A stretch of DNA of 64,000 bases from Caldilineaceae bacterium. GTDB taxonomy: Bacteria; Chloroflexota; Anaerolineae; Caldilineales; Caldilineaceae. The stretch lies in the NCBI GenBank assembly GCA_022821545.1, contig JAJEDJ010000047.1, positions 1 to 64,000 of the forward strand. The letters run 5' to 3'. This document shows, one piece after another, positions 682-17,521 of this stretch. Position numbers and translations under genes: made by a program. Below the pieces are notes generated by a model. It worked only from the letters and a program-made list of their open reading frames with translations, made no database searches and was not told the origin of the DNA. Positions within the stretch are counted from its first letter, which is position 1; every line of letters begins with the position of its first letter.

Positions 682-1569
682 TCAGCGTTCGCGGTAGTCT
701 CCCTGAAACACTTCGTTTAGGTGCCAGTGGGTGTAGTCTGCGCTGGGATAGTAGGTCTGTCGCTGTGGGAAGTTGAGCTTCTCGCCATGGAAACGCATCA
801 GCCATTCCTGGAAGCCTGCGGAACCATGTGCGTTTTCGGAAACGAGAATCTCCAGTTCGTCGGACAATGTGAAAGCGCCGCGGTCGAATAGCTTGTGGTG
901 AAGCGAACATAGCGCCAGTCCGTTCACTTCTACATCGGGGCCTCCGGCTTGATGCCATTTTATGTGGGCGGCCTCCAAAGCGACAGGCTGAAGCCCCAAT
1001 CTCACGTCGAAGCCGCATACGGCGCAGCGATACTCGTAGGCTTTCAAGATATTCTCCCGAAACTTCGGGTCGCGTCTCTGGCGAGTGACTCCTTTAGCAG
1101 TCAGCTCGATCCCGGCACTCTGCAAAATGTCTTCATGCCACGTGTCTGGAAAGTGCCCGTCCAACAATCCCTGAACAATTTCAATAGAGAGATCAGGGTC
1201 TGCCTGAAGTTGGCTGGCCATTTCCTTAGTAAATCCTCCATGAACATTGTAGTCGATCAAATCCCTCTTGAATGCGTCCCCACTGCCTGTTCGGCGAACC
1301 ATCTTGGCATCGGAAACAATCCAAATGTCGTCATTTTGAAGCCGCCAAAACGGGTACTGTGTTCCTTGGCTCGTCCGCCTGGGGCCGTACTCGCTCAGTA
1401 GCTTTCCAAGCTTGGTGTCGATCTCAGAATATGGCAGCAGGCGTCCCTTGCCCCGCAGCAATTCACCGATGGCGAGGATTACCAGCAGGGGCTTATGCGG
1501 TGCCCTTACTCCGTCCTTTCTAAAGAGATTCAACGTCTTGAATTTTTCAAGAACTGATTCTCTGTCCAT
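682..1569 (-). CDS. SBD-like HNH endonuclease, predicted to read phosphorothioated DNA
   Basis: This 295-residue protein has two parts. Residues 1 to about 160 resemble the sulfur-binding domain (SBD) of McrA-type restriction enzymes such as ScoMcrA: APHKPLL near residues 23-29, then YPFWRLQNDDIW near 72-83, whose Tyr-Pro lies where I expect the sulfur pocket. Residues 170-232 form an HNH nuclease with zinc-type cysteines C182 and C185, AAHI (H202), N216, then C221 and H224-H225. Family members bind PT DNA and cut nearby. The reading frame could begin at 1611, but the canonical start MDRESVLEKF lies at 1569. It is divergent from the SspA-like operon that begins at 2607, so a PT reader and PT writer sit side by side. 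Whether it cuts PT DNA or has been repurposed cannot be told from sequence. The HNH call is firm; the SBD call is strong but rests on recognition by eye. Confidence 0.85.
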   Translation of the reverse strand: MDRESVLEKFKTLNLFRKDGVRAPHKPLLVILAIGELLRGKGRLLPYSEIDTKLGKLLSEYGPRRTSQGTQYPFWRLQNDDIWIVSDAKMVRRTGSGDAFKRDLIDYNVHGGFTKEMASQLQADPDLSIEIVQGLLDGHFPDTWHEDILQSAGIELTAKGVTRQRRDPKFRENILKAYEYRCAVCGFDVRLGLQPVALEAAHIKWHQAGGPDVEVNGLALCSLHHKLFDRGAFTLSDELEILVSENAHGSAGFQEWLMRFHGEKLNFPQRQTYYPSADYTHWHLNEVFQGDYRER

Positions 1570-2606: not shown

Positions 2607-3776
2607 ATGCATAGCGTGAGTTTACCCACTCCTCCCCCAATTTACCTGGACCATCATGCCACCACACCTGTAGACCCCCGCGTGGTCGCTGTCATGTCGG
2701 ATGTTATGACGACTTCATTTGGGAACGCGAATAGCGTTGAGCACGTCTACGGTGAAGTGGCGGCTGATCAAGTCTCCCATGCTAGACGTGAGGTTGCGGA
2801 ACTGGTGGGTGCTGAGTCAGAAGGAGTTCACTTTACTAGCGGTTCAACGGAAAGCATCTGGCTTGCAATATCGTACGCTGTTGCTTCACGTCGACGAAAG
2901 CAGCTTCGAGTGGCGTTGTCGACTGTTGAACACCGGGCAGTCCAAGATGCTGTCGCATTTTACGAGCAGCGCGGCGAAGTAGGTGTTAGGTTGATTCCAG
3001 TCGACAATCAAGCTCGACTGGATATGGGCGCTTTGAGAGAAATCTGTCAAAGCGGCATCGACCTTGTCTGTGTAATGGCTGCAAACAATGAGGTGGGAAC
3101 AATATACCCCATCGAGGATGTTGTAAGACTTGTGGAATCCGCTGGGGCTCAGACCCTTGTCGATGCGACCCAAGCGGTGGGGCACATCCCCCTGAAGGCA
3201 AATGAATGGGGCATAGCATATCTCACGTTAAGCGCGCACAAGATTTACGGCCCGAAAGGAATAGGCGCATTAGTTATGCCCGCAGAATTTCGATTCGGGT
3301 TTGGGGAGTGGGTTGTTTCGGGGGTGAAGGAAGGCACACCTAACGTTCCAGGAATCGTTGGCTTTGGAAAGGCTTGTCAACTGCTTCGCTGCGCAATGTC
3401 GCATGATGAGCCACGTATGGCTGCACAACGCAATCGGCTGCAAGAGCTTCTGATTGCCGACATAGAAGGGCTTGTAGTAAATGGTGACCTTCAGAATCGT
3501 CTGGTCAACAACCTTCATGTCGCAGTTCCTGGCGTCCCAAACGACGCCATTATCGCCAGATTGCGCCACCATGTCGCTCTGTCCTCAGGCTCAGCATGTT
3601 CATCAGCGTCCCAAGTTCCCTCGCATGTGCTTCAAGCGATGGGACTGTCGGAATCCTTACAGGAAGGAGCCATTCGCATTGGGATAGGAAAGTTCACCAC
3701 CGACGATGAGATAAACAGGGCGGCAATGTATATCTCTGAGGCAATATTTTCTATCCAAAGTGTGTTAGGAAGATAG
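2607..3776 (+). CDS. sspA: Cysteine desulfurase, SspA/DndA/IscS-like
   Basis: A PLP-dependent class V aminotransferase-fold cysteine desulfurase (389 residues), which removes sulfur from L-cysteine as an enzyme persulfide. The IscS-type opening YLDHHATTPVDPRV is present, as is TVEHRAV with the PLP-stacking His, DATQAVGH, the Schiff-base lysine K212 in SAHKIYGPKG, and the mobile-loop cysteine C331 in SSGSACSSAS. As first gene of the operon, directly before a DUF4007 gene, it is best read as the sulfur donor of a DNA phosphorothioation system (SspA) rather than a housekeeping IscS. No IscU, IscR or tRNA-thiolation gene lies nearby. The 80-bp gap to the next gene is the second largest in the operon. 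Catalytic residues appear intact. Confidence 0.9.
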   Translation: MHSVSLPTPPPIYLDHHATTPVDPRVVAVMSDVMTTSFGNANSVEHVYGEVAADQVSHARREVAELVGAESEGVHFTSGSTESIWLAISYAVASRRRKQLRVALSTVEHRAVQDAVAFYEQRGEVGVRLIPVDNQARLDMGALREICQSGIDLVCVMAANNEVGTIYPIEDVVRLVESAGAQTLVDATQAVGHIPLKANEWGIAYLTLSAHKIYGPKGIGALVMPAEFRFGFGEWVVSGVKEGTPNVPGIVGFGKACQLLRCAMSHDEPRMAAQRNRLQELLIADIEGLVVNGDLQNRLVNNLHVAVPGVPNDAIIARLRHHVALSSGSACSSASQVPSHVLQAMGLSESLQEGAIRIGIGKFTTDDEINRAAMYISEAIFSIQSVLGR

Positions 3777-3856: not shown

Positions 3857-4786
3857 ATGGACAGTTATAGGTATTCGGGACATGAAAGCTTTGCCTGTCG
3901 CTACGCATGGCTGCCGAAAGGTTACAATGCGATTGTCGAGGACCCGAGCATCTTTTCGGATCAAGAACGCGCGATGGTACGCCTGGGAGTCGGCAAGAAT
4001 ATGGTCCGCTCTATACGTTTCTGGGTCGAGACAATGGGTGTAGCGGAGCCCGGCAGAAACAGGACACTTGAACCGACCCCCTTTGGAAAGGCAGTTTTTT
4101 CCGACCCTGGATATGATCCCTATTTGGAAGATATCCGAACGCTTTGGCTACTACATTGGAACGTTACCTCACGCCCGGTTGGCGCGCTTTTCGCATGGGA
4201 TTTTCTATTTCATAAGTGGCCATATGCTGAGTTGACCCGCAGCGAAGCCCTGTCTGCATTCAACCGAGAGTCTCGACGTCTGAACCAGTCCCGATCAGAA
4301 GTCACTTTGGGTGAACACTTAGATGTCTTTCTGCACACCTATGTTCCCAGGAAAGGGAATGCACGGCCTTCTGAAGAATCGTTAGACTGTTCATTAGCCG
4401 AGTTGGAACTGCTTCAAATTGTAGGTGAACGGCGAGTCGATGGTTCAGGACGAAGAGAACCGGTCTATGCCTTTCGTCGCGAAACCAAGCCCGACATCAC
4501 CACGGCCCTCTTTGAGTATTGTTTGAACGATTTTTGGGAGAAGCGTCACGCTGGAGAAGCCACCCTTACATACCGCGACGTTGCTTTCGCAACGGGAAGT
4601 GTCGGTCAGACATTTAAGCTCCCGGAAGACGATATACGTACGCGCCTGGACGTCTACACAAAGCCAGATGTATCCCGCCCCTATAACTACCAGCCGTCAG
4701 CCGTCCAGGGGTTGGTCTCTCGCAGCAATGAAGTGAATCAGGATTTTCTGGATGCTGTCTACTCGGAGGGCGAACGTAATGTTTGA
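3857..4786 (+). CDS. sspB: DUF4007 protein, SspB-like phosphorothioation component
   Basis: This 309-residue protein opens with SGHESFACRYAWLPKGY and then LGVGKNMVRSIRFW, the hallmark N-terminus of DUF4007. From memory of the Vibrio Ssp system, the DUF4007 protein is SspB, described as a DNA-nicking component of single-strand phosphorothioation that works with SspC and SspD. No catalytic motif is obvious by eye. The last 8 bases overlap the start of the following ATPase gene, so the two are translationally coupled and probably act as partners. DUF4007 and SspC-like ATPases are usual neighbours, which supports both calls. Confidence 0.8.
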   Translation: MDSYRYSGHESFACRYAWLPKGYNAIVEDPSIFSDQERAMVRLGVGKNMVRSIRFWVETMGVAEPGRNRTLEPTPFGKAVFSDPGYDPYLEDIRTLWLLHWNVTSRPVGALFAWDFLFHKWPYAELTRSEALSAFNRESRRLNQSRSEVTLGEHLDVFLHTYVPRKGNARPSEESLDCSLAELELLQIVGERRVDGSGRREPVYAFRRETKPDITTALFEYCLNDFWEKRHAGEATLTYRDVAFATGSVGQTFKLPEDDIRTRLDVYTKPDVSRPYNYQPSAVQGLVSRSNEVNQDFLDAVYSEGERNV

Positions 4787-7700
4787 GTCACAGCCTCCCC
4801 ACTCCACGCTTCGGAAACGTGAGGGTATAGGAACTGACGACTTTGGCAGTACTCGCCTCAGGATAGATAGTCTTTTCCGTCTTCCGGAGCGCTACTTGCG
4901 CTCGGTACATCTTGAACGAGATTTTAGTGATCCAACATCTCTAAGCAATTATGTTGCTACGCCCACAATGGTGGCGCAGTTTCGCCGCTTGCTTGAAGGG
5001 CTCCGATCTGGCTCCGGCCGCCGGGCGTGGCGAATTACCGGAGACTATGGTACGGGAAAGTCCGCATTTGCGCTTGTCCTTGCACATCTTCTGCGGGACC
5101 CGACAGCGCCGACTCTTGAATCCATCCGTCAAACCATAGAGCAAAAGAGCAAACTCGACGTCCTTGATTCGGTCCGGATGGTACCGGTGCTAGTAACTGG
5201 CGCCCGTGAGCCGATCGTTCCCGCAATTGCGCGGGCCGTGAACCGCAGCATTGAAAGGATGCACGACAGACAGCGCGCAACTCGGGCTGTCAAAAACCTG
5301 CAGAAACAAGCCACTTCAATCGTGTCTACTCAAGATGGATCGCATCTCTTGGACCTCCTGGATCTCCTTGTAGGGTACGGAACTGAGAATGGCTATTCGG
5401 GCGCATTGCTGGTACTGGATGAGTTAGGCAAATTTCTCGAATACGCTGCTCTGCACCCCGAGCAAGAGGACGTATATGTACTGCAACGACTGGCGGAGGT
5501 CGCCGTACGGAGCGATGATAAGCCACTGGTTGTCGTTGGGCTTCTTCACCAAGGATTTCATGCATATTCAGAGAGTTTGCCTTCGGCGACAAGACTGGAG
5601 TGGGAGAAAGTTGGCGGCCGCTTCGACGAGATAACCTTCGACCAACCTCTGGCACACGTATCATCACTTGTGGCGAGCGCCCTCAATGTTAACCAGAAAC
5701 TTGCTCCAGTAGATGTCGTAGAAGCTGCCCAACATATCAAAGACATGAATTCGGACATAGGATGGAGTGGAACTTCAGAAAGCCCAGAATCTCCACTGGC
5801 CCTGTATCCCATGCACCCAACGCTGCTACCGGTACTGGTACGGTTCTTCGCTAGATTCGGGCAGCACGAGCGTTCCCTGTTGAGTTTCCTGCTCTCATCA
5901 GAGCCATTCGGACTTCAATCTTTCGCAGAACGTCCTGCCAGTGGTGGTGCTTGGTACCGACTGTGTGAATTCTATGACTATGTCCGAAGCGTGTTTGGTC
6001 ATCGATTAGCTGGTGCAAGCTATCGTAGTCACTGGTTAAGGATCAGTGAGACGATTGACCGATTGACCGACACAGATCCTTTTGAGTTGAGCCTCTTAAA
6101 GGCTGTGGCAATGCTCAATCTTCTTGACGCAGAGGACATGTTGGCCGACGATGATTCGTTGAAAGTTGCCCTTACAACCAGAGAAAAAATAGGGCCCCTG
6201 AGTCAGGCTGTGGCAGATCTGAAGGGCCGTGGCGTCCTTTTTGACAGGGGGGCAGCAGGCGGCTACTGTTTGTGGCCAGGCACTAGCATTAATTTGCAGT
6301 CTGCGTTTGAGTCGGCAAAACGCGCAATAGGGCCGGTGGATCGGGTGTCGGAACACCTGCGCCCCTTTTTGGATCAGAATTCGGTCGTGGCGCGTCGCCA
6401 CTACATCAGAAAGGGTACGCTACGTCACTTTGAGGTCCGTTATGCCGACCCCACAAATCTGCGTGACACCGTTGACCCGCCGACTGACGCTGACGGCTTA
6501 GTGGTAGTAGCTCTTTGCGATTCCCAGGAAGAGCGTCAACTCGCTAAGAAAGAAGTCAAAACTGACAAAATTGCCTCCCGTCCTGAGTTGGTGGTGGTAA
6601 TCCCCGGTCCCCTTCAAGGATTCGCGGCAGAAGTACAGGATGCCATTTCATGGCAGTGGGTTGCCGACAATACACCTGAATTGGCTTCAGACTCCTACGC
6701 CGCCGCTGAGGTGGCTCGCCAAGTCGCGTCGTCTCGTAGGACACTTTATAGAACTCTTGATGCTCTATTTGGTTTCCGGGGTGTAATTTCCAGTGAAATA
6801 GCGTGGTGGCGGAAAGGTAAACACCTAACTTCGCCCTCTAGAACCAGCTTCTCTTCTGCATTGTCCGACGTCTGCGACGATCTGTACCGAGATGCGCCCA
6901 GCATCCACAATGAGCTTCTGAATCGCCGTACTTTGAGCGGCGCGGCATCGGCTGCGCGATTGCGCCTCATTGATCGCTTGTTCACCGCAGCCGATCAACC
7001 AGTTCTCGGTATGGGAGCCGGCAAGGCTCCTCCAGAGAAGTCTATGTACTTGTCTGTGCTTCGTGCAGGAAACATACATCGTGAGGAAGCAGGACGAATC
7101 GTGCTGACTGAGCCCCCTGCTGAAGACGATCCGTTGTGTTTACGCCCTGCGATGATGAAAGTCCTCACACTCCTTGAACAGGCCAATGGGCACCGTGTGC
7201 CTGTGATTGAGATTTTCGATGAATTAAGGAAACGCCCGTATGGTGTGCGAGAGGGTGTGGCGCCCCTTCTCTTGGCGATCATGACTGCGGCTCACGCCCA
7301 TGAGATCGCTGTATATGAAAATGGAACATTCCTGCCACAGTTTGGCTCCCCCGAATTCCTGCGACTGACCAAGCAGCCCGCGACCTTTGACTTGCAGCTA
7401 AGCCGCATCGTGGGAATCCGCGCGGAACTGTTCTCCCGCTTGGCGGCTGAATTTGCACGTGAACGCTGCAGCGAGCGAGAGTATGAGTTGCTTGACGTTG
7501 TCCGACCGCTAAGCATGTTCGCTGCACAGCTACCCGATTACACTCGGCGTGTTTCTACCTTGCCTGAACCGGCAAAAGGCGTTCGTGACGCCCTCTTTTC
7601 AGCTCGCGAGCCCGCTACCCTCATTTTCAGAACGCTACCCGTCGCATGTGGACTGAACCCTTTTCTGGAAGACGGACCCTCACGGGCCAAAGAGGCGCAA

Positions 7701-8345
7701 CAGTTTGTGGCCGTGCTTCAGGATGCAATTGGGAGCCTGCGCGCAACTTATCCGCAACTGCTTGAACGAATTCGACATCATATCGCGCTCGGCTTGAAGG
7801 ACGGGACCACTCAGCCAAGCCGTACTCAAATTACGAAGCGTGCGTCGCGTGTATCGTCAGTTGCGCAAGAGCCCCGTCTGCAGGCGTTTGCTCGTTGCCT
7901 GGCCGACGAGGCCCTGTCCGATGACTCGTGGGCGGAACGAGTTGGCAGTTTTGTCGTATCCAAGCCGCCAGCGCGGTGGTCAGCCGCCGATGAAGCCAAG
8001 GCTATGAACGAGATCGACCTCCTGGCGGCAAGGTTTTGTCGGTTCGAGGCCACCGTCTTTGAAGGCGACAATAGTGAGCCACATGTCAGCGCTTTCAGGC
8101 TGGGGCTGACAAATGGCGATGGCACAGAAGTAGCCAAGGTTGTCCGCGTCCGCCAGGAGGACGAAGCCGCTGTGAAGGAACTCGCCGCCAAAGTCGAAGA
8201 CGTTCTGGCGGCGGCCAATGATCTGCGGCTAGCGGCTATTTCAAAGGCACTGTGGAGCATACTTGGCAACGACGACCAAGGCGACCGGCTCTCTCCTGCG
8301 GCGAATTCTCACGGCGCTGGCGATTCTTCTGGAGAGGTGTCATGA
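4779..8345 (+). CDS. sspC: Large P-loop ATPase, SspC-like
   Basis: A 1188-residue protein with a clear N-terminal ATPase: Walker A GDYGTGKSAF (K94) and Walker B LLVLDELGKF (D214, E215), followed by PLVVVGLLHQGFHAY, which resembles a sensor-1 strand. The remaining 900 residues are mostly helical and unrecognised. The start is set at 4779 (MFESQPPH) because GGAGGG lies 8 bases before it; an upstream ATG at 4752 lacks such a site. In the Ssp pathway the ATPase is thought to drive assembly or activity of the modification complex; this is family knowledge, not shown here. The stop codon overlaps the start of the kinase-like gene (ATGA), so expression is coupled. It is longer than I would expect of an average AAA ATPase, and the C-terminus may hold protein-interaction surfaces for the added components. 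Confidence 0.75.
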   Translation: MFESQPPHSTLRKREGIGTDDFGSTRLRIDSLFRLPERYLRSVHLERDFSDPTSLSNYVATPTMVAQFRRLLEGLRSGSGRRAWRITGDYGTGKSAFALVLAHLLRDPTAPTLESIRQTIEQKSKLDVLDSVRMVPVLVTGAREPIVPAIARAVNRSIERMHDRQRATRAVKNLQKQATSIVSTQDGSHLLDLLDLLVGYGTENGYSGALLVLDELGKFLEYAALHPEQEDVYVLQRLAEVAVRSDDKPLVVVGLLHQGFHAYSESLPSATRLEWEKVGGRFDEITFDQPLAHVSSLVASALNVNQKLAPVDVVEAAQHIKDMNSDIGWSGTSESPESPLALYPMHPTLLPVLVRFFARFGQHERSLLSFLLSSEPFGLQSFAERPASGGAWYRLCEFYDYVRSVFGHRLAGASYRSHWLRISETIDRLTDTDPFELSLLKAVAMLNLLDAEDMLADDDSLKVALTTREKIGPLSQAVADLKGRGVLFDRGAAGGYCLWPGTSINLQSAFESAKRAIGPVDRVSEHLRPFLDQNSVVARRHYIRKGTLRHFEVRYADPTNLRDTVDPPTDADGLVVVALCDSQEERQLAKKEVKTDKIASRPELVVVIPGPLQGFAAEVQDAISWQWVADNTPELASDSYAAAEVARQVASSRRTLYRTLDALFGFRGVISSEIAWWRKGKHLTSPSRTSFSSALSDVCDDLYRDAPSIHNELLNRRTLSGAASAARLRLIDRLFTAADQPVLGMGAGKAPPEKSMYLSVLRAGNIHREEAGRIVLTEPPAEDDPLCLRPAMMKVLTLLEQANGHRVPVIEIFDELRKRPYGVREGVAPLLLAIMTAAHAHEIAVYENGTFLPQFGSPEFLRLTKQPATFDLQLSRIVGIRAELFSRLAAEFARERCSEREYELLDVVRPLSMFAAQLPDYTRRVSTLPEPAKGVRDALFSAREPATLIFRTLPVACGLNPFLEDGPSRAKEAQQFVAVLQDAIGSLRATYPQLLERIRHHIALGLKDGTTQPSRTQITKRASRVSSVAQEPRLQAFARCLADEALSDDSWAERVGSFVVSKPPARWSAADEAKAMNEIDLLAARFCRFEATVFEGDNSEPHVSAFRLGLTNGDGTEVAKVVRVRQEDEAAVKELAAKVEDVLAAANDLRLAAISKALWSILGNDDQGDRLSPAANSHGAGDSSGEVS

Positions 8346-10723
8346 ATTTCCGGGTTGCCGCAAGAACCCTTCTCCACTTAGGTGCCGAACTTATAAGTAC
8401 GGACGAGGTAGCATTCTTTGAACTGGTCAAGAACGCCTTTGACGCCGGATCACCCCGAGCCGATATCGATGTAGTGGTTCGTCTCGAATATGATGCGTGT
8501 ATTACCCAACGGCAATTTATACTGGATTGCAAAACCGATCTTCTCTACGGTGAAGCCTTAGAAAAGGCAATGGATGACTGCAAAGGGGCGATCATCGCCG
8601 GAGTGGATAACTCAACTCCCCATGCTGGGTCTTACGCTGGGAGAATAAGAGCGGCGAGTTCGTGGGATGATCTGCTGGAATTGATCGATGACGCCAACTA
8701 CATCCTCATCGAGGATAAAGGCAGCGGCATGTCTTTGAAGGACCTGGAGGAAGTCTATCTCACTGTCGGGACCCGCTACCGGCTTGACGAGCGGGAAAGG
8801 CAGGTCGAATCGCGCAACGATCTGTCCGTCAGCAGTCGTCCTATCCTGGGCGAGAAGGGCATTGGGCGACTTTCCGCAATGCGGCTGGGTTGGGGCTTGA
8901 AGGTTGAAACCACCCAAGCCGGTGAGACACACTGGAATATCCTTGAGGTGAATTGGCGCAATTTTGATTCACCCAATCTGAAGTTTGTCGGCGATGTAGA
9001 GGTCACCTCAACCAGAGGCAATGTCAAGACCCAATTGGAGTGCAGCGGAACACGCATAAGAATTACCAGCCTGGCCTCAGCTTGGTCAACAGAAAAACTT
9101 CAGGACATCGCCACGGAACTCAGCAAATTCACCAACCCGTTCTATCCGCGCTCACGATATCAAATTTCTCTGCGGTTCAACAGAGAGCCTATACGCATCC
9201 GACGACTCGACCGAATCCTCTTTGAGCAAGCCCACGCAGTAGTGCAGGCTACATACAGTCTAGACAAGGTCGGGCCGCGTTTTTCCGGTGCTGTCAACTA
9301 CCTGTTGCGTAACCGGCAAAAGACCTTTTCTTACGATTGGCAGGAACTATTCTCAATCACCAATCGGATCCCCCTTTCGGTGCTGCGGGCGCTCGGCCCA
9401 TTTTCGGTAGAGTTTTACTGGTACAACCGACGTGCTTTGCAGGCGGTCGAAGGAATCGGGACCAAGCGTCAAGTTCAAGAGTTTGTAAACTCATGGTCTG
9501 GTGGCCTGATGCTGTTTCGGGACGGATTCCGTGTATTCCCCTATGGGAATCGTGACGATGATTGGCTGGATCTTGACCGGAAGGCGCTGGCCTCCAGTGG
9601 GTATAAGGTGAACCGCAAACAGATCATAGGCCAAGTCAAGATCGGAATCTTTGATAATCCCCATCTGGTAGACCAGACGAATCGCGAAGGGCTGAGAGAT
9701 TGTCCGGAAAAGGACGCTCTGGTCCAACTATTGAAACACCTGTTAGAAGACGTCTTTCGAACTTTCATCAACCTAGTGGACAATGAAATTCGAGCGCTGG
9801 AGCCGGTCTCATTTGATGACTTGGAAGAACGCGCCGCAGACGAAATGAGGCAAATGCGCCACTACATCGAAGCGCTTTTGAGCAAGTATCCTCAGCTGAA
9901 ACACGACTCACAAATAGTTCGCCCGCTCGAGCAGGCGGTGGCCAGGATCCGTCTCTTGCTGGATGAGGCCTCCCAATTGGCAGAAGCATACGATGTGGGG
10001 AGGACTCAGCTACTAAACTTGGCCGGCCTTGGCATGATGGTGGAAATTGTTGCCCATGAGTTGAACAGGGCCACCCGTTTCGCACTACGGGCACTCGCCG
10101 CTCCTCGGAAGGAGGAACCGGACAATGCCCGCGGCACGGGTCAATTTGACGTTTTGGAAGCCCAGCTCAGGACTCTCCAGAAACGATTGAGAATCCTTGA
10201 TCCGCTCAGTACGGCGGGTCGGCAGCATAAGCAGAAATTCGACCTCATCAGGTGGGTTGATGAGATTCTACAATCTCACCAAGCCCAGTTTGACCGCCAT
10301 GACATTCAGTGCGTCCTGCGTGTCCTGCCGGAGACCTCTCCAGAAAAGATGGACGTTCGCATGGTCAAAGGCATGGTAGTTCATATTGTCGAAAACATTC
10401 TCAGCAATTCAGTGTATTGGATCAAAGAAAAAAAGGTGCTGGACAAATCCTTCGAGCCAAAGATAGAGGTCGTCATAGACACCATGGCTAAGGAGATCAG
10501 GTTCACTGACAACGGCCCCGGCGTGGATCCCTTGCGTGAAGAGGAGATTTTTCAGCCCTTCGTAACCACCAAGCCCCCGGGCGAAGGGAAGGGGCTCGGG
10601 CTATACATCTCACGAGAGATCGCTTCATACCACGATGCTGCCATCGGCATCTCCGAAGAACGAACGGTCCATCCGGACAGGCTGAATACCTTCGTGTTTT
10701 CACTGGAGAGTAACGATCGATGA
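8342..10723 (+). CDS. Dual-GHKL protein: MORC/HSP90-like N-terminus plus histidine-kinase C-terminus
   Basis: This 793-residue protein carries two GHKL ATPase signatures. The N-terminal one has ELVKNAFDAG (N31, D34), IEDKGSGMS (D125) and LGEKGIGRLS (residues 169-178), the MORC/MutL/HSP90 pattern. The C-terminal one is histidine-kinase-like: an H-box VAHELN with candidate phospho-acceptor H572, N-box ENILSN (N685), G1 DNGPG (D723) and G2 GEGKGLGLYISRE from about 747. There is no transmembrane or signal segment, so it acts in the cytosol. The start at 8342 follows GGAGAGGTGTC and overlaps the sspC-like stop; an open frame from 8252 would overlap sspC heavily. The next gene encodes a receiver-like partner, also by ATGA overlap, so a cytosolic two-component relay is the natural inference. 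The trigger, perhaps foreign DNA or modification status, is unknown. Confidence 0.8.
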   Translation: MNFRVAARTLLHLGAELISTDEVAFFELVKNAFDAGSPRADIDVVVRLEYDACITQRQFILDCKTDLLYGEALEKAMDDCKGAIIAGVDNSTPHAGSYAGRIRAASSWDDLLELIDDANYILIEDKGSGMSLKDLEEVYLTVGTRYRLDERERQVESRNDLSVSSRPILGEKGIGRLSAMRLGWGLKVETTQAGETHWNILEVNWRNFDSPNLKFVGDVEVTSTRGNVKTQLECSGTRIRITSLASAWSTEKLQDIATELSKFTNPFYPRSRYQISLRFNREPIRIRRLDRILFEQAHAVVQATYSLDKVGPRFSGAVNYLLRNRQKTFSYDWQELFSITNRIPLSVLRALGPFSVEFYWYNRRALQAVEGIGTKRQVQEFVNSWSGGLMLFRDGFRVFPYGNRDDDWLDLDRKALASSGYKVNRKQIIGQVKIGIFDNPHLVDQTNREGLRDCPEKDALVQLLKHLLEDVFRTFINLVDNEIRALEPVSFDDLEERAADEMRQMRHYIEALLSKYPQLKHDSQIVRPLEQAVARIRLLLDEASQLAEAYDVGRTQLLNLAGLGMMVEIVAHELNRATRFALRALAAPRKEEPDNARGTGQFDVLEAQLRTLQKRLRILDPLSTAGRQHKQKFDLIRWVDEILQSHQAQFDRHDIQCVLRVLPETSPEKMDVRMVKGMVVHIVENILSNSVYWIKEKKVLDKSFEPKIEVVIDTMAKEIRFTDNGPGVDPLREEEIFQPFVTTKPPGEGKGLGLYISREIASYHDAAIGISEERTVHPDRLNTFVFSLESNDR

Positions 10724-12642
10724 CAACGACGGATACGAACTCGACACACGCGGTTACGCAGCGCCTGCGCCACGCTGGCATTACTAGTGCCGTCGTTATC
10801 GACGACGCCTTCAACACACCGGCCTTGGATGATCTTACTGATGAGATTGCAGATTTCTGGACTGCAATCGATCGGAACGATCGCGCGCTTTCTGAACTGA
10901 ACGACTTAAAGCCAGAATTCGAAGGAGAAGACGACATCGATGAAGAACTAATAAATTGTTTGTGGGCTCGGACTCTCAATGAAGAGCCGTCATCTCTATT
11001 GATTCTCTGCAAAACCACTCTGTTTTCGCGGCAGATTGAAAGCCTCTCTGACCTTACTTCTCTTGTTGACTATCTGAAAGGAAAAGGCATCACGCCAATC
11101 CTACTGGGCACTGAAGACGACCTACCCGATGGACAGCAAAGGCTGTTTTTCCTGGACTTCATCCTGGAGTCAGACATTGCACTGCCTAGCAGTGGAGAGG
11201 TAGAGGTGGTCATTCAAGAATATGCGGCGGGAACCCCAGCAAATCCACTGATACAAGTATCGATAGACAAAGCCAAGCAGATTTTAGATGAGTTCGATGA
11301 CGCGTTCATCATACTGATGTCATCTAAAGCCGGCGTGCTACAGGCGAAGGATAGATTCCGTCACGAAACTGGTCTGATTGAGGGGATGTTTGACTACATT
11401 CCGAAGGAGCAATTAGCTGGGGAGAGAGAGCTGAATCTGAAGTTAGGAATTTCAGCCGCCCGCGTGTCGGATCGCCATGAAATCCAATGTTTTGTGGACG
11501 CTTTCGAAACGTCGCTTATGGAAGCGTCAGAAGAATTCATCAAGCGGATCAAGAGTCTCAGCTTTGAAGACTATATGTACATCTATTCCCTCAGTTTGCA
11601 TAGGGATGGCCATCCACTGGGCGACTACATGTCAGGGCTATTCAAATCATTGCTGGCCCATCTTGTCCATGATAATGTTCAGGTAATTAAGGCACAGAAT
11701 AGATTAGATGACATCGATATGGAAGCATACGTTCCTTTGAAGAAAGTGCCCTCCAAACACTTGGTTGAAATGTTCAGTCTGTCACTGACCGAGCCGGGTA
11801 TAACAAGTGCTTCAACGGATTTGCGCCTGGGCGACTTATATGTGAATGGTGCCAAAGAAGCGCTACTTGTCATCAATGCCGAATGTGATCTTGCCCGTTT
11901 GCAGCTAAACTCTGGCAGTGGGAGTGAAGATGGCCCTTCGATTCTACTGCACGCGGGACGCATGGAATTGGTTGAAAAGCCGGCTGAGAGCGAGGACAAG
12001 AAAAAATACAAAATTACGGATCTCTTGTTCCACGAGGGGAAACGGTACAGAATCGTATGGGAATATGAAAGAGTAATAACCAAGGAATATGGTGAACTAG
12101 AGGAATGGCTTGACGCCGAAGGCTATTCGAAGAAGGCGCGGCTAATTACGCAGCACGCGCTGGAGATTCAGCAACACTTTGCAGCCAAACTGACACGTGT
12201 AGGAATGCCTGTTGCGCCTCCTCTTCCCAGACCCGCCACGGTTCAGGTATTTGGCAAAAACAATGGTGGGACCTTGGAAAGACTGGGGGACGACATCCCG
12301 CGGGGCGTGGTGATAGACCGAAAAGGATTTCGTTTTACTTCAGATCAGTTCAGCCAAATACTACAGAGGGTGGATCAAGGAATCTCACACTACATTGCTC
12401 TACGCGAATCGTTTGAAGAGGGTTCCAGACGTTTTGAAAGGCAAGCAGAAAGAATCGACAAATTGAAAGCGTGGTTACAAGATGTCGAGGGATGGCTTGC
12501 CTTGGTTGAAAGCAGCAACGGCATGCCCACAGGTAACAAAAGCAAGCAAATTGGCTCAAATGGCGTTCTGGAAGTATTCTGCAGGCCCAAATTGGAGACG
12601 GCGCAGTGCTTAATTGCAATCAACCTCCTGCCAGATGAATGA
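10720..12642 (+). CDS. Response-receiver-like protein with a long unassigned C-terminus
   Basis: A 640-residue protein whose first 230 residues fit a divergent receiver (REC) fold. Visible are the acidic pair VVIDDAF (D28, D29), the candidate phosphorylated aspartate in RLFFLDFILE (D146), the switch serine in IILMSS (S201/S202) and a lysine in YIPKE (K229), in the canonical order. The spacing is larger than in CheY because of an acidic insert at about 55-80. The C-terminal 400 residues contain no DNA-binding, GGDEF or nuclease motif I recognise. A stretch near 380-400, INAECDLARLQLNSG, is conserved-looking but unassigned. It overlaps the upstream kinase-like gene by 4 bases (ATGA), as cognate pairs often do. 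It may transmit the kinase state to the sulfur-transfer or helicase components encoded downstream. Confidence 0.65.
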   Translation: MTTTDTNSTHAVTQRLRHAGITSAVVIDDAFNTPALDDLTDEIADFWTAIDRNDRALSELNDLKPEFEGEDDIDEELINCLWARTLNEEPSSLLILCKTTLFSRQIESLSDLTSLVDYLKGKGITPILLGTEDDLPDGQQRLFFLDFILESDIALPSSGEVEVVIQEYAAGTPANPLIQVSIDKAKQILDEFDDAFIILMSSKAGVLQAKDRFRHETGLIEGMFDYIPKEQLAGERELNLKLGISAARVSDRHEIQCFVDAFETSLMEASEEFIKRIKSLSFEDYMYIYSLSLHRDGHPLGDYMSGLFKSLLAHLVHDNVQVIKAQNRLDDIDMEAYVPLKKVPSKHLVEMFSLSLTEPGITSASTDLRLGDLYVNGAKEALLVINAECDLARLQLNSGSGSEDGPSILLHAGRMELVEKPAESEDKKKYKITDLLFHEGKRYRIVWEYERVITKEYGELEEWLDAEGYSKKARLITQHALEIQQHFAAKLTRVGMPVAPPLPRPATVQVFGKNNGGTLERLGDDIPRGVVIDRKGFRFTSDQFSQILQRVDQGISHYIALRESFEEGSRRFERQAERIDKLKAWLQDVEGWLALVESSNGMPTGNKSKQIGSNGVLEVFCRPKLETAQCLIAINLLPDE

Positions 12643-12717: not shown

Positions 12718-13530
12718 ATGTCTACAATTAGACACATCCTCAGTCTTTCCGGCGGTAAAGACAGCGCTGCGCTCGCCATCTACATGCGCGACCGCGTCCA
12801 CGAGATGGAATACATCTTCCATGACACCGATAAAGAGTTGCCGGAAACACTGGACTATCTAGCGAGGCTTGAGGCCATTCTGGGAAAGCCGATTGTCAAG
12901 ACCTCCACAGTTGACAGTTTTGACCACTGGCTGACCGTCTATGGCGGGATGCTTCCTTCGAATCACCGACGCTGGTGTACCAAGATGCTCAAACTCAAGC
13001 CTTTCGAGACATTTGTTGGCAGCGATCCCGTTGTCAACTATGTGGCCCTGAGAGCGGACGAAGACCGAACCGGCTACATCAGCGCCAAGGAGAATGTCGA
13101 GACGGTCTATCCGTTTCAGGATGATGGAATCGTCCGCGCCGACGTCATCCGCATCCTTGAGGAATCCGGGTTAGGTTTGCCACCATACATGGCATGGGGC
13201 CGCACACGATCCGGATGCTTCTTTTGCTTTTACCAACAGAAGATCGAATGGGTGCGGCTCAAAGAGGTCCACCCTGACCTATTTGAAGAGGCCAAGAGGT
13301 ACGAAGAACAGAGCGTATTGCACGGAGAAGAGTTTTTCTGGAACGCGCGCGAGTCTCTGGCGGAATTGGAACAGCCTGAACGCGTGAACCAGATCAAGGC
13401 AAATTGGGAGGCGGCACAAGCGCGCAAGCGCGCCCAGCGCAAAAACCTGCCTCTTGTGGAGACCCTTGGCGGTTTGGTGGTGGATGATGAACCGCACGAG
13501 CGAGACGGGTGCTTGATTTGCTCCATCTAG
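12718..13530 (+). CDS. sspD: PP-loop PAPS-reductase-family protein, SspD/DndC-like
   Basis: An ATP pyrophosphatase of the phosphoadenylyl-sulfate reductase family (270 residues). The PP-loop SLSGGKDSAALAIYM lies at residues 8-22. It has C87 in RRWCTKML, C167 and C170 in GCFFCF, and a C-terminal CLIC (C265, C268), a plausible Fe-S cluster set like that of DndC. In PT systems this enzyme activates the DNA backbone phosphate and takes sulfur from the desulfurase. It differs clearly from the CysH at 39838, which has a CC/CxxC pattern and sits with a siroheme-type chelatase. GGAG precedes the start. The gap of 75 bases before it is much larger than the overlaps elsewhere in the operon. The next gene starts inside its last codons. 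Confidence 0.85.
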   Translation: MSTIRHILSLSGGKDSAALAIYMRDRVHEMEYIFHDTDKELPETLDYLARLEAILGKPIVKTSTVDSFDHWLTVYGGMLPSNHRRWCTKMLKLKPFETFVGSDPVVNYVALRADEDRTGYISAKENVETVYPFQDDGIVRADVIRILEESGLGLPPYMAWGRTRSGCFFCFYQQKIEWVRLKEVHPDLFEEAKRYEEQSVLHGEEFFWNARESLAELEQPERVNQIKANWEAAQARKRAQRKNLPLVETLGGLVVDDEPHERDGCLICSI

Positions 13531-14930
13531 ACGCAGACGGCCAATTGGATGATGGCAAGTTCGATAAGAAATCTTCAGATGCACCATTGCCAGCCCCGCT
13601 TCGGCCCTATCAATGGGAAGGCGTACACTTTCTCCTGGACAAAGAAACTGCGCTGCTAGCTGATGAGATGGGACTGGGCAAGACCGTCCAAGTGGCAGTC
13701 GCGCTGTCCATGAAACTCAAAGCTGGCAGCCGTAGGCGATCCTTAGTTGTAGCTCCAGCATCCCTCCGCCTCAATTGGGCACGCGAACTGGCTCGTTGGG
13801 CGCCCGATATCAGTGTAGGCGTAGTCCGAGGTGGACCCGAAGATCGACGCGCCTACTACATGCTTCCCTATAACGTATTGATCGCATCCTATGAGCAAAT
13901 TCGGGCCGACTTCCTGCGCTCTACGAACGCCACCGAATACGACGTTGTAGTATTGGACGAGGCCCAGCGGATCAAGAATGCGAATTCTGAAACCGCTTTG
14001 GCATGTCGTGTCCTGCGCCGTGATGCGTCGTGGGCTCTTACCGGTACACCCTTAGAAAACCGAGTGGGAGATCTGGTTGGAGTTTATCGTTTCGTGTGTC
14101 CAGGACTGCTGTCATCCGCGATGAGTCGGCCAGAGATGCATACCGCAATGCAGCCCTTTTTCCTACGGCGGCGCAAATACGATGTTCTGCATCAACTGCC
14201 TCCCATCCAGTTCCAGGATGTCTATGTCGAATTGGAAGGACAACAGAAACATGCCTATGATGCACTCTGGAAAAATAGGGACAACCTGACCCACCGCGGA
14301 GGTAGCAATAAACGTACTTCATCAATGCTTGCTCTTATCACTCGCCTAAAGCAAGTTTGCAACTTTGATCCAGCTAGCGGTGAATCATCTAAACGAGAAG
14401 CTCTCGGCTTGATCATTGACGGGCTCGTATCGGCGGAGCACAAGCTTCTTGTTTTCTCCCAGTATGTCAAGACTCTCCGATGGCTGGCTCAGGAAATTGC
14501 AGATACGGCTACAGTTGACATTATTCACGGCGGGCTGCCTGAACAGGATAAAGACAATGCGGTTGCTCGTTTCAACAATGAGCCAGGACCTCGAGTGCTT
14601 CTTGTATCTTTGAAAGCTGGAGGCGTTGGGCTAAATCTCGGAGAAGCCAGCCATGTAGTCTTGTTCGACCGCTGGTGGAATCCTGCTGTAGAAGAACAAG
14701 CTATACACCGAGCACATCGCTTTGAGAGAGATCGGGTCCTTCACGTTTATCGGTTTCTGGTTGTCGACTCGATTGAGGACCGAATCTCCGCGATATTGGG
14801 TGAAAAGAGAGAATTATTCGAGCAATATGTAGAGGCCGCTGACAACGCACCAGTGCCGTCTTTTTCAGGATGGGAGTTGGAGAATGTGTTGGATCTCGGC
14901 CACATTGACAATAGCCTTCCAAATGGGTGA
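13509..14930 (+). CDS. SNF2-family DEAD/DEAH-box helicase or translocase
   Basis: A compact 473-residue SNF2 ATPase: motif I LLADEMGLGKT (K58), motif Ia VVAPASLRLNW, motif II VVLDEAQRIKN (DEAQ, 150-153), motif III WALTGTPLENR, motif IV region LLVFSQYVKTLRWL, and motifs V-VI RVLLVSLKAGGVGLNLGEA then AIHRAHR. It would move along double-stranded DNA using ATP. No nuclease or zinc domain is fused to it. The GTG start at 13509 overlaps the end of the SspD-like gene by 22 bases, which implies coupled translation. Short N- and C-terminal tails suggest it depends on partners for DNA targeting, possibly the ParB-like proteins or beta-CASP nuclease encoded next. Family assignment is firm; the role is inference. 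Confidence 0.9.
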   Translation: MLDLLHLDADGQLDDGKFDKKSSDAPLPAPLRPYQWEGVHFLLDKETALLADEMGLGKTVQVAVALSMKLKAGSRRRSLVVAPASLRLNWARELARWAPDISVGVVRGGPEDRRAYYMLPYNVLIASYEQIRADFLRSTNATEYDVVVLDEAQRIKNANSETALACRVLRRDASWALTGTPLENRVGDLVGVYRFVCPGLLSSAMSRPEMHTAMQPFFLRRRKYDVLHQLPPIQFQDVYVELEGQQKHAYDALWKNRDNLTHRGGSNKRTSSMLALITRLKQVCNFDPASGESSKREALGLIIDGLVSAEHKLLVFSQYVKTLRWLAQEIADTATVDIIHGGLPEQDKDNAVARFNNEPGPRVLLVSLKAGGVGLNLGEASHVVLFDRWWNPAVEEQAIHRAHRFERDRVLHVYRFLVVDSIEDRISAILGEKRELFEQYVEAADNAPVPSFSGWELENVLDLGHIDNSLPNG

Positions 14931-14960
14931 ATCAATCGATCAACTATCGGAGATACGACA

Positions 14961-15779
14961 ATGGCGACAGTGAAAGAGTATCTGCAGATTCCGCTGGATT
15001 GTCTTGAAATTGGAAGGGGACAAGCCAGAACACGTGACGTAGCCGCAGGCATCCCGGAGCTGGCCGACAGCATAAGAAAGGTTGGTTTATTGGAGCCTAT
15101 CGTAGTGTGCGAGAGTTTACAATCAGGTAAGTATGAGATCCTCACGGGGCAGCGACGCTTCCTTGCTCACAGAGAACTGGGAATTGACACAATTTGGGCC
15201 GCGGTCCTGGATAGCAGGGTCAATGAAATTACGGCAAAGGTAATCTCAGTCACCGAAAACCTGGTTCGGCGAGATCTGAATAGTCGTGATCTCATTGATG
15301 CCTGCACATACCTTTTTAAGCAATATGGCAGCGCCAAGGCGGTTGCAGAGGAAACAGGATTACCATACGCTGATGTCTTAAACTATGTGAAATATGATCG
15401 GCTCCTCCCAGAACTGAGGGAGTTGTATGATCAAGGCGAGGTTGAATTGCGCACGGCACTCAGGGCGCAGGATGCAGCCGAGGTCATGGGCGGGGACGTT
15501 GCTGGCACTGCGATTGCTCTGGCCAACGAGATGAAACCCATGACTTACGCACAGCAGAGAAAGCTGGCTACAGGGGTGAAAGAGTCTCCACATAAACCTC
15601 TGGATGAAACAATAGAGACCGCCAAAACAGGTGCGCAGATTACCCAAATAGTTGTGACAATTGGGACCGAACTACTCCAGCGGCTTCAACTTTTCGCTAA
15701 AGACGAAGACACGTCGCAGAATGAAGCCGCTGCAACTCTGATTGAAGAAGGGCTTGAGCGCAAGGGTTACCGAGACTAG
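14961..15779 (+). CDS. ParB/Spo0J N-domain protein
   Basis: A 272-residue protein with a full ParB N-terminal (CTPase-type) domain: IPELADSIRKVGLLEPIVV near 31-49, the nucleotide motif TGQRRFLAHRELG (residues 62-74, GQRR in place of the usual GERR), then VTENLVRRDLNSRDLIDAC from about 98. A helix-turn-helix-like part follows (YGSAKAVAEETGLPYADVLNYV). The C-terminus, near 225-270, looks like a ribbon-helix-helix dimerisation segment. GGAG stands 12 bases before the start. No ParA partner is present, so plasmid-style segregation is unlikely. In this operon it may clamp onto or slide along DNA to mark or load the helicase and nuclease; that is inference. Confidence 0.85.
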   Translation: MATVKEYLQIPLDCLEIGRGQARTRDVAAGIPELADSIRKVGLLEPIVVCESLQSGKYEILTGQRRFLAHRELGIDTIWAAVLDSRVNEITAKVISVTENLVRRDLNSRDLIDACTYLFKQYGSAKAVAEETGLPYADVLNYVKYDRLLPELRELYDQGEVELRTALRAQDAAEVMGGDVAGTAIALANEMKPMTYAQQRKLATGVKESPHKPLDETIETAKTGAQITQIVVTIGTELLQRLQLFAKDEDTSQNEAAATLIEEGLERKGYRD

Positions 15780-15782
15780 CAT

Positions 15783-16496
15783 ATGGAAAGCGATCTTTCT
15801 CCTGAACAGAAGCGAGACCTAATCCTTTCACTTGGCACGCACAGAACAGAGAGACGATTGTCTCCTATTGAAGTTGCACGTCTGATCGACGTGCTGCACC
15901 GAAACGGGACTTCCTTTAGGGAGATTGCCCACCTGGTCAGTATGAAAAGCACCAGTACGCTCAGGGAAATCCATCGCCTCTTGGAATTGGATCCTGACAT
16001 TCAACATCTTGTTGGGTGGGGCAAGCCTTCCGCAACTACACTTCCAATGAAGTCAGCGCAACAAATCGCCCGTCTGCCTTCCTGGCAGGATCAATTGGCC
16101 GCCACCAAGGCTACTTTAGCCCATGAACTGACCTCCGAAGAAGCACGGCAAGTAGTTGAGTCAAAGATACGCTCTCAGGAACCTATCGGCGATTGCATCG
16201 ATGCTGTTTTGCGTCTTCGGCCCACAATTGAGCGCAAGTATCTGTTTCTAGGAGCGGTGACATCCAATAGAGTTAGCCGCCATTTGGAGACCCTGACACA
16301 AGTGGAGCGCGATGAGGTCTTCAATGCGGGCATCAATCATTGCTATGACGGCTGGCCCCAGTGGTCAGGCAAGCTTGGCGTTTCAAGATTCACTTTCTCC
16401 GGCGGAGTTGACCTGGCACATGTCCTTGAAGAACTGCCTGTTGGATTTGAGCAAGCAATCACCCAATGTCTGGAATCTTTTTTGGAACTTTCGTGA
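15783..16496 (+). CDS. ParB-like helix-turn-helix protein (no CTPase domain)
   Basis: This 237-residue protein begins only 3 bases after the ParB N-domain gene. Residues 25-60 (SPIEVARLIDVLHRNG then SFREIAHLVSMKS) read like the HTH region of KorB/ParB proteins, and residues 80-135 (KSAQQIARLPSW, LAHELTSEEARQVVE) match the following helical part. The GERR/GQRR and ENLxR motifs are absent. The C-terminal 100 residues are unassigned. With its neighbour it looks like a ParB architecture divided between two polypeptides, or a paralogue that lost the N-domain. The last base of its stop is the first base of the next start (TGATG). Confidence 0.6.
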   Translation: MESDLSPEQKRDLILSLGTHRTERRLSPIEVARLIDVLHRNGTSFREIAHLVSMKSTSTLREIHRLLELDPDIQHLVGWGKPSATTLPMKSAQQIARLPSWQDQLAATKATLAHELTSEEARQVVESKIRSQEPIGDCIDAVLRLRPTIERKYLFLGAVTSNRVSRHLETLTQVERDEVFNAGINHCYDGWPQWSGKLGVSRFTFSGGVDLAHVLEELPVGFEQAITQCLESFLELS

Positions 16497-17521
16497 TGCA
16501 GAGTCTAGCCAATGTGTCGGCGAATGGAGGTATCGCGCTTGGAGGAAAAGTCGTCTGTGACGGCTTCCTGTCAAATGCTGCAGTAAGAGTGCAAACACAC
16601 ATCCATGCTGATCACATGACCGACTTCGAATCGAGCAAGGGCTTTCAAACGATTCTCATGAGTGAACCGACGAAGGATCTGCTCGTTGTAGAGCTAAACG
16701 CGGAACTTGCCTATCGGTCCAATGTGATTGCAATACCTACCGGCCAGTTGTACGAAATCGAAGGATGTCGGATAGAGCTCTTGCCCAGTGGACATATGTT
16801 AGGTTCAACGCAAGTGAGTGTGACCTTGCCTGATGGGTCCAGGGTGGCATATTCCGGCGATTTCAACTGGCCTCTCAACGAAGTGATAAGGACTGACGTT
16901 CTGGTCGTAGACAGTACCTATGGGAGCCCAGACCGTGCGAGGCGATACTCCCAGTCGGAAGTAAATGACCGACTGATCGAGCTTGTTCTCCGTCAGTTAG
17001 GGCAGGGCGCAGTCCACATAAAGGCACATCGGGGGACTTTGGAACGAGCCCTTGAAGTGCTGGATGGAGCCACTCAAGTCCCCATAATTGCTACCCCAAA
17101 ATTGTGTAAGGAGGTTGATGTCTACAGGAAGTTCGGCTACCAGATTCGGCCACTCCTGGACATCAGTTCCGAAGATGCGCGACATTATCTGACTGAAGGG
17201 CAATACTTGCGACTATATGGCATTGGAGAAGGCGACCTCTTTGGCCTGGAGAATGGAACGGCAATCAATCTTAGCGCGTTTATGGCTAGTAGCACAGACC
17301 CAGTTCTGGAGCTTTCTCCTAGAGCATTCAGTGTGGCGATGACTTGCCATGCGGATTTCGACGGAACGCTTCGCTATATCGAGGCAACCGGCGCGCAGCA
17401 CGTAATCACGGATAACTATCGCGGTGGTCATGCAGTTGAGTTGGCCATTGCGGTCCGATCCCAACTTGGTATTGATGCAGCTCCTTCACAGTCACGCCCT
17501 GGCCGATACTGGGGGGAGTGA
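16496..17521 (+). CDS. Beta-CASP metallo-beta-lactamase-fold nuclease
   Basis: A 341-residue MBL-fold hydrolase with the metal motif HIHADH (H35, H37, D39, H40), the third motif LPSGHMLGSTQV, and AYSGDFNWP with the bridging Asp. Then come the beta-CASP-type elements: VVDSTYGSP (motif A acid), IKAHRGTLERALEVL (helicase-like insert with His) and a C-terminal TCHADFDGTLRYIEATGA. This pattern belongs to the SNM1/Artemis and ligase-associated exonuclease group, which degrade or process DNA ends. The ATG at 16496 overlaps the preceding stop. An upstream frame opening at 16466 is less likely. As the last gene of the operon it is the best candidate for the nuclease effector or for a trimming enzyme acting at nicks. 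Metal ligands look complete. Confidence 0.85.
   Translation: MQSLANVSANGGIALGGKVVCDGFLSNAAVRVQTHIHADHMTDFESSKGFQTILMSEPTKDLLVVELNAELAYRSNVIAIPTGQLYEIEGCRIELLPSGHMLGSTQVSVTLPDGSRVAYSGDFNWPLNEVIRTDVLVVDSTYGSPDRARRYSQSEVNDRLIELVLRQLGQGAVHIKAHRGTLERALEVLDGATQVPIIATPKLCKEVDVYRKFGYQIRPLLDISSEDARHYLTEGQYLRLYGIGEGDLFGLENGTAINLSAFMASSTDPVLELSPRAFSVAMTCHADFDGTLRYIEATGAQHVITDNYRGGHAVELAIAVRSQLGIDAAPSQSRPGRYWGE

Follow-up and report, generated by a model that had tools for sequence, protein, structure and literature searches.

The nuclease studied here is closest to the EcoWI/SprMcrA-type enzymes, in which a sulfur-binding domain (SBD) is joined to an HNH nuclease domain. Enzymes of this type cut phosphorothioate (PT) DNA in a sequence context, near Gps sites, and those studied so far read the Gps motifs made by Dnd; fewer than 3.6% of SBD-HNH genes lie near dnd (Lutz et al., PMC7461809). 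The SBD of SprMcrA binds GpsGCC, GpsATC and GpsAAC, not the known Ssp mark CpsCA (PMC7470945, Table 1). ScoMcrA has the domain order SBD-SRA-HNH and holds the sulfur with H116, R117, Y164 and P165; R117 is replaced by lysine in most ScoMcrA homologues, and an R117K protein binds about equally (PMC6224610). SBD-SRA-HNH genes have been reported in Dnd loci, across 698 taxa, where a restriction role was proposed (Rakesh et al. 2024, PMC10853773).

How one cell can harbour both a writer of PT marks and an enzyme that cuts at them is a puzzle. Type IV enzymes are paired with restriction-modification systems of different specificity in the E. coli immigration control region. There, likewise, a modification-dependent nuclease sits beside a modification system that it must not read, although that region concerns base methylation whereas the pair described below concerns backbone sulfur. 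For PT, Lutz et al. only listed possibilities: a dead writer, a dead or weak reader, or a different motif. The SspABCD-SspE and SspABCD-SspFGH systems have the same writer genes as our locus and include an effector that senses PT status, SspE being a GmrSD-type protein with a PT-stimulated GTPase. Most sspBCD loci lack known effectors (Wang et al., PMC8092258).

The nuclease and the neighbouring ssp operon

The window, the whole 64,000-nucleotide stretch of Caldilineaceae DNA that was analysed, starts at a contig end, to the left of the nuclease gene. The nuclease is taken to start at the ATG at 1569; a GTG further upstream would lengthen the reading frame to 1611. The initial annotation had likened the N-terminal half of the product to an SBD and called for structure prediction and inspection of the sulfur pocket, and both bear the resemblance out. 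This half matches the solved SBDs of ScoMcrA (phmmer E 3.4e-14) and SprMcrA (4e-7), the C-terminal half matches the HNH domain of TagI (8e-10), and Pfam HNH_2 is found at 9.8e-12. NCBIfam NF045808, "phosphorothioated DNA-binding restriction endonuclease", is matched at 344.9 bits (curated cut-off 180 bits) over profile positions 4-284 of 284. An AlphaFold2 model (mean pLDDT 91.5) matches the PT-DNA-bound ScoMcrA SBD, 5zmo (Foldseek E 2.6e-8; Z 21.8, 2.0 A over 154 residues), and next the SprMcrA and Hga SBDs; its HNH part aligns with TagI at Z 14.1.

The sulfur pocket expected of the family, with the pattern H, R/K, Y/other, P, reads H25, K26, Y72 and P73 in this protein. The catalytic and zinc residues of the HNH domain (C182, C185, H202, N216, C221, H224 and H225) are all intact, and pocket and HNH residues are also intact in the tabulated ssp-linked relatives. 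In one Poribacterial SBD-HNH of the coexisting type (L187, genome G489) the catalytic H225 is replaced by Y. The SBD runs directly into the HNH domain, and SBD and HNH_2 are the only domains. Neither the GmrSD_N (DUF262) NTPase and GmrSD_C of SspE, nor an SRA domain between SBD and HNH as in ScoMcrA, was found in the protein by Pfam or in the model. Domain order, sulfur pocket and HNH residues are as in EcoWI/SprMcrA-type enzymes, whose annotated plasmid members are 33-45% identical to it; ScoMcrA shares the SBD fold but has the additional SRA. Sequence and model comparisons thus confirm the predicted product of 682-1569 on the minus strand as a member of the EcoWI/SprMcrA family of PT-dependent endonucleases, and it almost certainly recognises sulfur-marked DNA.

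Features of the nuclease and the ssp region (window coordinates)
Feature	Position	Strand	Basis
SBD-HNH endonuclease (NF045808, PT-dependent type IV restriction enzyme), 295 aa	682..1569	-	ORF, Pfam, phmmer, NCBIfam, AlphaFold2
Sulfur-binding domain, residues 1-157	1099..1569	-	VIA-align Z 21.8 to 5zmo, model residues 3-158
Pocket residues H25-K26 (= ScoMcrA H116-R117)	1492..1497	-	alignment; roles from PMC6224610
Pocket residues Y72-P73 (= ScoMcrA Y164-P165), then F74 W75	1351..1356	-	alignment; roles from PMC6224610
HNH nuclease domain, residues 163-295	685..1083	-	Pfam HNH_2; TagI Z 14.1; residue alignment
SspA/DndA-type cysteine desulfurase	2607..3776	+	PADLOC DndA 376 bits, SspA 376 bits
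SspB (DUF4007), DNA-recognition/nicking subunit of PT writer	3857..4786	+	PADLOC 360 bits; Pfam DUF4007
SspC ATPase	4752..8345	+	PADLOC 1345 bits
GHKL/histidine-kinase (HK)-like protein, probable accessory, between sspC and sspD	8252..10723	+	Pfam HATPase_c, HATPase_c_3
640-aa partner of the HK-like protein	10720..12642	+	no family match; homologues adjoin ssp operons
SspD (PAPS-reductase-like ATP pyrophosphatase)	12718..13530	+	PADLOC 385 bits
SNF2 helicase, ParB, ParB-HTH, MBL-fold module, 3' of sspD	13509..17521	+	Pfam/NCBIfam; homologues beside Poribacteria DndCDE operons

SspA, SspB, SspC and SspD are all full length, with PADLOC models matched nearly end to end. The nuclease and the operon are divergent and about 1 kb apart, and 2.3 kb separate the nuclease from SspB. 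Thus the initial description of a nuclease divergent from a full set of writer genes stands, except that the set is not contiguous: the GHKL/HK-like and 640-aa genes separate sspC from sspD. With the reader's pocket and catalytic residues intact and the writer genes full length, the self-cutting paradox raised at the outset is a real one. The nuclease and ssp genes have a G+C content of 53% in common, lower than the 61% of the window past 17.5 kb, and therefore look like one acquired island. The genome (4.87 Mb) holds exactly one SspB and one SBD-HNH nuclease. Neither DndC nor a GmrSD protein of the SspE type was found in it, and its sole GmrSD_N protein is a short NsnA-like one.

Neither Pfam nor PADLOC could assign the 640-aa protein to a named family. 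Together with the HK-like protein (8252-12642; L298, L299, L300) it occurs in or beside ssp operons of Chloroflexota and Alphaproteobacteria: likewise between sspC and sspD on a Candidatus Chlorohelix plasmid (Chloroflexota), and flanking the ssp operons of Agrobacterium sp. T29 and Rhizorhabdus wittichii. The pair is probably an accessory of Ssp systems. The T29 and Rhizorhabdus operons run into, or adjoin, three sspFGH-like genes (judged by sizes and FtsK annotation), a place occupied in the window by the SNF2-ParB-ParB-MBL module. Homologues of this module, 35-57% identical in all or most genes, directly adjoin Poribacteria DndCDE operons (L292, L293, L295, L297), and an effector module common to Ssp and Dnd writers is a possible reading.

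Linkage across genomes and writer loss in Poribacteria

Relatives of the nuclease, sought in 84,980 species genomes, were found at 80 loci across many phyla, with sspD directly upstream of the nuclease in one Gemmatimonadota and several Poribacteria genomes. Among 49 genomes with close nuclease relatives, 12 encode a true SspD (E below 1e-100); its gene is no more than 10 kb from that of the nuclease in 11 of them, and in the twelfth both lie at matching contig ends. Among 85 Poribacteria genomes the nuclease was found in 33, SspD in 53 and SspB in 45, and at 24 of the 34 Poribacteria loci sspD lies within 10 kb of the nuclease on the same strand. The survey that the initial annotation had suggested therefore shows that the pairing recurs and, unlike the EcoWI/SprMcrA-type enzymes studied to date, this nuclease clade is concentrated at ssp loci. 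The window's own phylum, searched in 400 genomes, yielded no second full SBD-HNH of the NF045808 family, only shared HNH domains, none adjoining ssp. The nuclease occurs in 2 of 388 Verrucomicrobiota genomes, too few for a second test. At one Verrucomicrobiales locus (L089, genome G421) the order is SspB, SspC, SspD, a 649-aa gene, SspG, SspH, SBD-HNH and SspA. In Methylibium petroleiphilum PM1, a strain in culture, a plasmid carries an SBD-HNH 45% identical to that of the window, plus sspBCD, DUF262 and FtsK genes, with SBD-HNH and sspBCD more than 100 kb apart (L061 and L301, NC_008826.1). Reader and writer therefore coexist beyond Poribacteria and the window. In the literature searched, papers available without subscription, neither an SBD-HNH gene at an ssp locus nor the writer-loss pattern described below had been reported.

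Two further contexts were seen. On Azospirillum and Euzebya plasmids (L063, L064) the SBD-HNH gene lies directly 3' of large helicase-like genes. In Desulfobacterota (L077, L078) it lies near opposite-strand DUF4007 and SspC-like genes, possibly a BREX-related system, in a genome without SspD.

Two ARRANGEMENTS were found at Poribacteria loci, Arrangement A and Arrangement B. Arrangement A, seen in 11 genomes and in two others whose locus is split between contigs, consists of the nuclease, a gap of 0.4-0.9 kb and an intact sspB-sspC-sspD. Arrangement B comprises 12 genomes, another with the locus split between contigs, and one loose case, G415; here sspD is followed after 25-60 bp by the nuclease, and all 14 cases have an incomplete writer. 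The incomplete writers show at least five different lesions: stop codons in SspB (G404); an intact SspC with SspB missing (G520, and also the Gemmatimonadota genome G403); a 48-residue SspB remnant with a shortened SspC (G478); a shortened SspC without SspB (G415); and an intact SspB with SspC missing (G406). Neither SspB nor SspC was found in the remaining Arrangement B genomes. Assembly gaps were considered as the cause and set aside, several cases being complete chromosomes or single large contigs (L072, L074, L071; G520).

In contrast to the 14 of 14, only 2 of 26 sspD genomes free of the nuclease lack SspB, both with partial sspD genes, and the remaining 24 are SspB-positive (p 5e-9, Fisher, shared ancestry ignored). 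On the SspD tree, four independent pairs on starred branches agree with writer loss (p 0.125; the best tree allows nine pairs), which is no more than suggestive of a link between writer loss and a nuclease after sspD. Arrangement A, Arrangement B and nuclease-free loci are found between the same flanking genes and so resemble alleles of a single site.

Both genes that persist in Arrangement B are under purifying selection, with median dN/dS of 0.044 for sspD and 0.086 for the nuclease, values equal to those of Arrangement A. On these values and the intact residues an inactivated reader was rejected at the sequence level, and silencing, one of the ways out of the paradox first offered, thus finds no support in the protein (dN/dS about 0.09 in both arrangements). 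Decay of SspD in writer-less loci was likewise rejected, its motifs being intact and its dN/dS as elsewhere. SspD changes are slightly in excess at writer-less loci (85 vs 60, p 0.046, from non-independent triplets), so writer loss may be recent.

Other orphan and exchange contexts were noted in this group. At L272 (G487:C118) sspD stands with a PbeA/PbeC-like pair and without adjacent sspB or sspC. The slot after sspBCD (L268-L287) swaps SspE, PbeA/PbeC-like pairs, GmrSD-HNH, DndB-like proteins, several GHKL ATPases and a type ISP enzyme.

SspB lineage and the compatibility of reader and writer

On the SspB tree the coexisters with intact writers form one clade (support 100/99). The nuclease is present in 13 of 14 clade members and 1 of 21 other SspB genomes (p 1.3e-7, Fisher, shared ancestry ignored). 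The 14th member cannot be judged, since its SspB begins 228 bp from a contig end, and the lone nuclease-bearing SspB genome outside the clade has lost SspC. G489 and G502, in which the nuclease is stranded at a contig end, were placed in the clade as predicted beforehand. On the nuclease tree, Arrangements A and B are intermixed (6 and 7 changes) within one well supported 34-row clade that includes the window. Thus tolerance tracks the writer's recognition subunit and not the ancestry of the reader, as the SspB tree sorts the coexisters and the nuclease tree scatters them. The window SspB belongs to a lineage other than that of the Poribacteria coexisters, together with one G423 paralogue that has no adjacent nuclease.

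DndC occurs in 13 of 33 Poribacteria with the nuclease and 15 of 44 without (p 0.64), and in nuclease-bearing genomes it sits in complete DndCDE operons where these were inspected. Since intact DndCDE operons coexist with it, the nuclease clade probably does not target the resident Dnd mark, and this counts against a role as reader of such marks. The same counts weaken the early suggestion that only Dnd-type invaders are cut. A different sequence preference fits best of the four ways out originally proposed, in that coexistence tracks the SspB clade and the SprMcrA SBD does not bind CpsCA. The CpsCA result is not generalisable, because a more promiscuous SBD exists, that of Hga (PDB 8h0l).

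Together these results lead us to favour, with moderate confidence, a PT-dependent type IV restriction enzyme that polices PT marks other than those of its SspABCD neighbour. The SBD would insert the sulfur of the PT linkage into the pocket formed by H25, K26, Y72 and P73, and the HNH domain would cut nearby. The enzyme would cut DNA that bears the mark of another Ssp writer, such as that of a phage or plasmid grown in a marked relative, and the cell's own mark would lie in a sequence context that the SBD does not read. SspB, as the recognition subunit, would set compatibility: where the reader matched the writer, the writer would be lost, and where the two were mismatched, both would persist. 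Because some Ssp-type marks would be destroyed, the nuclease would be tolerated only where SspB writes a mark that it ignores. We infer that the nuclease cuts PT-DNA, which motif it reads, and that self-cleavage drove the Poribacteria writer losses. The window pair is probably a mismatched, compatible one, an assumption made by analogy with the Poribacteria pairs and because both reader and writer look intact.

Confidence is moderate because of a position effect, the presumed difference in motifs and the retention of sspD. In Arrangement A the nuclease also differs in position, upstream and separate from the operon, so that expression level, not sequence specificity, could explain tolerance. 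The mismatch model leaves the intact sspD at writer-less loci unexplained, and the coexistence of writer and reader at a distance on the Methylibium plasmid runs counter to it.

The position effect leads to a second reading, which we consider unlikely: the enzyme would read its neighbour's mark but be kept low or off, and act only on foreign DNA that is heavily marked or modified throughout, or else serve as a suicide nuclease once triggered. It accords with the gap and the place outside the operon in intact-writer cases, with the divergent nuclease of the window, and with the requirement of some family members for PT on both strands (Bsp305I, PMC7461809), given that Ssp marks one strand (PMC8092258). 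Regulation alone would not, however, predict that the coexisters fall within one SspB clade, and the Verrucomicrobiales nuclease lies within an operon whose writer is intact.

We regard as less probable still an SspE-like restriction effector of ssp, for which host PT would be a self signal or landing site and unmodified invader DNA would be damaged. Such a role has been proposed for SBD-SRA-HNH proteins in Dnd loci (PMC10853773), and 2,211 of 2,678 sspBCD loci lack both sspE and sspFGH (PMC8092258). In many genomes the nuclease adjoins sspB or sspD on the same strand; it fills the effector slot 3' of sspD in some operons, and lies between SspH and SspA beside SspBCD in the Verrucomicrobiales genome. 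Unlike SspE, however, it has no NTPase domain, characterised family members cut PT-DNA directly (PMC7461809), and PbeA/PbeC-like or GmrSD-HNH modules are already present in many operons with an intact writer and the nuclease. Furthermore, about 13 Poribacteria have the nuclease beside sspD without SspB or SspC and still under purifying selection; that a dozen or more genomes maintain it without a complete Ssp writer disfavours the landing-site idea of the initial annotation.

That the two are ordinary defence-island neighbours without functional link is very unlikely: although the window pair is merely divergent, 1 kb apart and at a contig end, with no second such pair among 400 genomes of its phylum, the single nuclease and single SspB of a 4.87 Mb genome lie 2.3 kb apart, same-strand linkage with narrow spacing recurs in several phyla, and writer status is non-random.

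For the policing of other writers' marks, the Poribacteria loci are a natural experiment that separates the options of Lutz et al. and suggests that SspB is the subunit that decides, and they supply writer pairs with directly comparable motifs. More tentatively, the clade may comprise the first sulfur readers aimed at Ssp-type marks. Behind sspD, such a reader would flip the ssp locus from "sulfur means self" to "sulfur means foreign" and destroy the resident writer unless SspB specificity hid the mark, and the leftover sspD-nuclease pair may be a two-gene defence unit. If the policing model is true, these enzymes would provide SBDs with a new sequence specificity, for Ssp-type marks, that would be useful for mapping single-strand PT.
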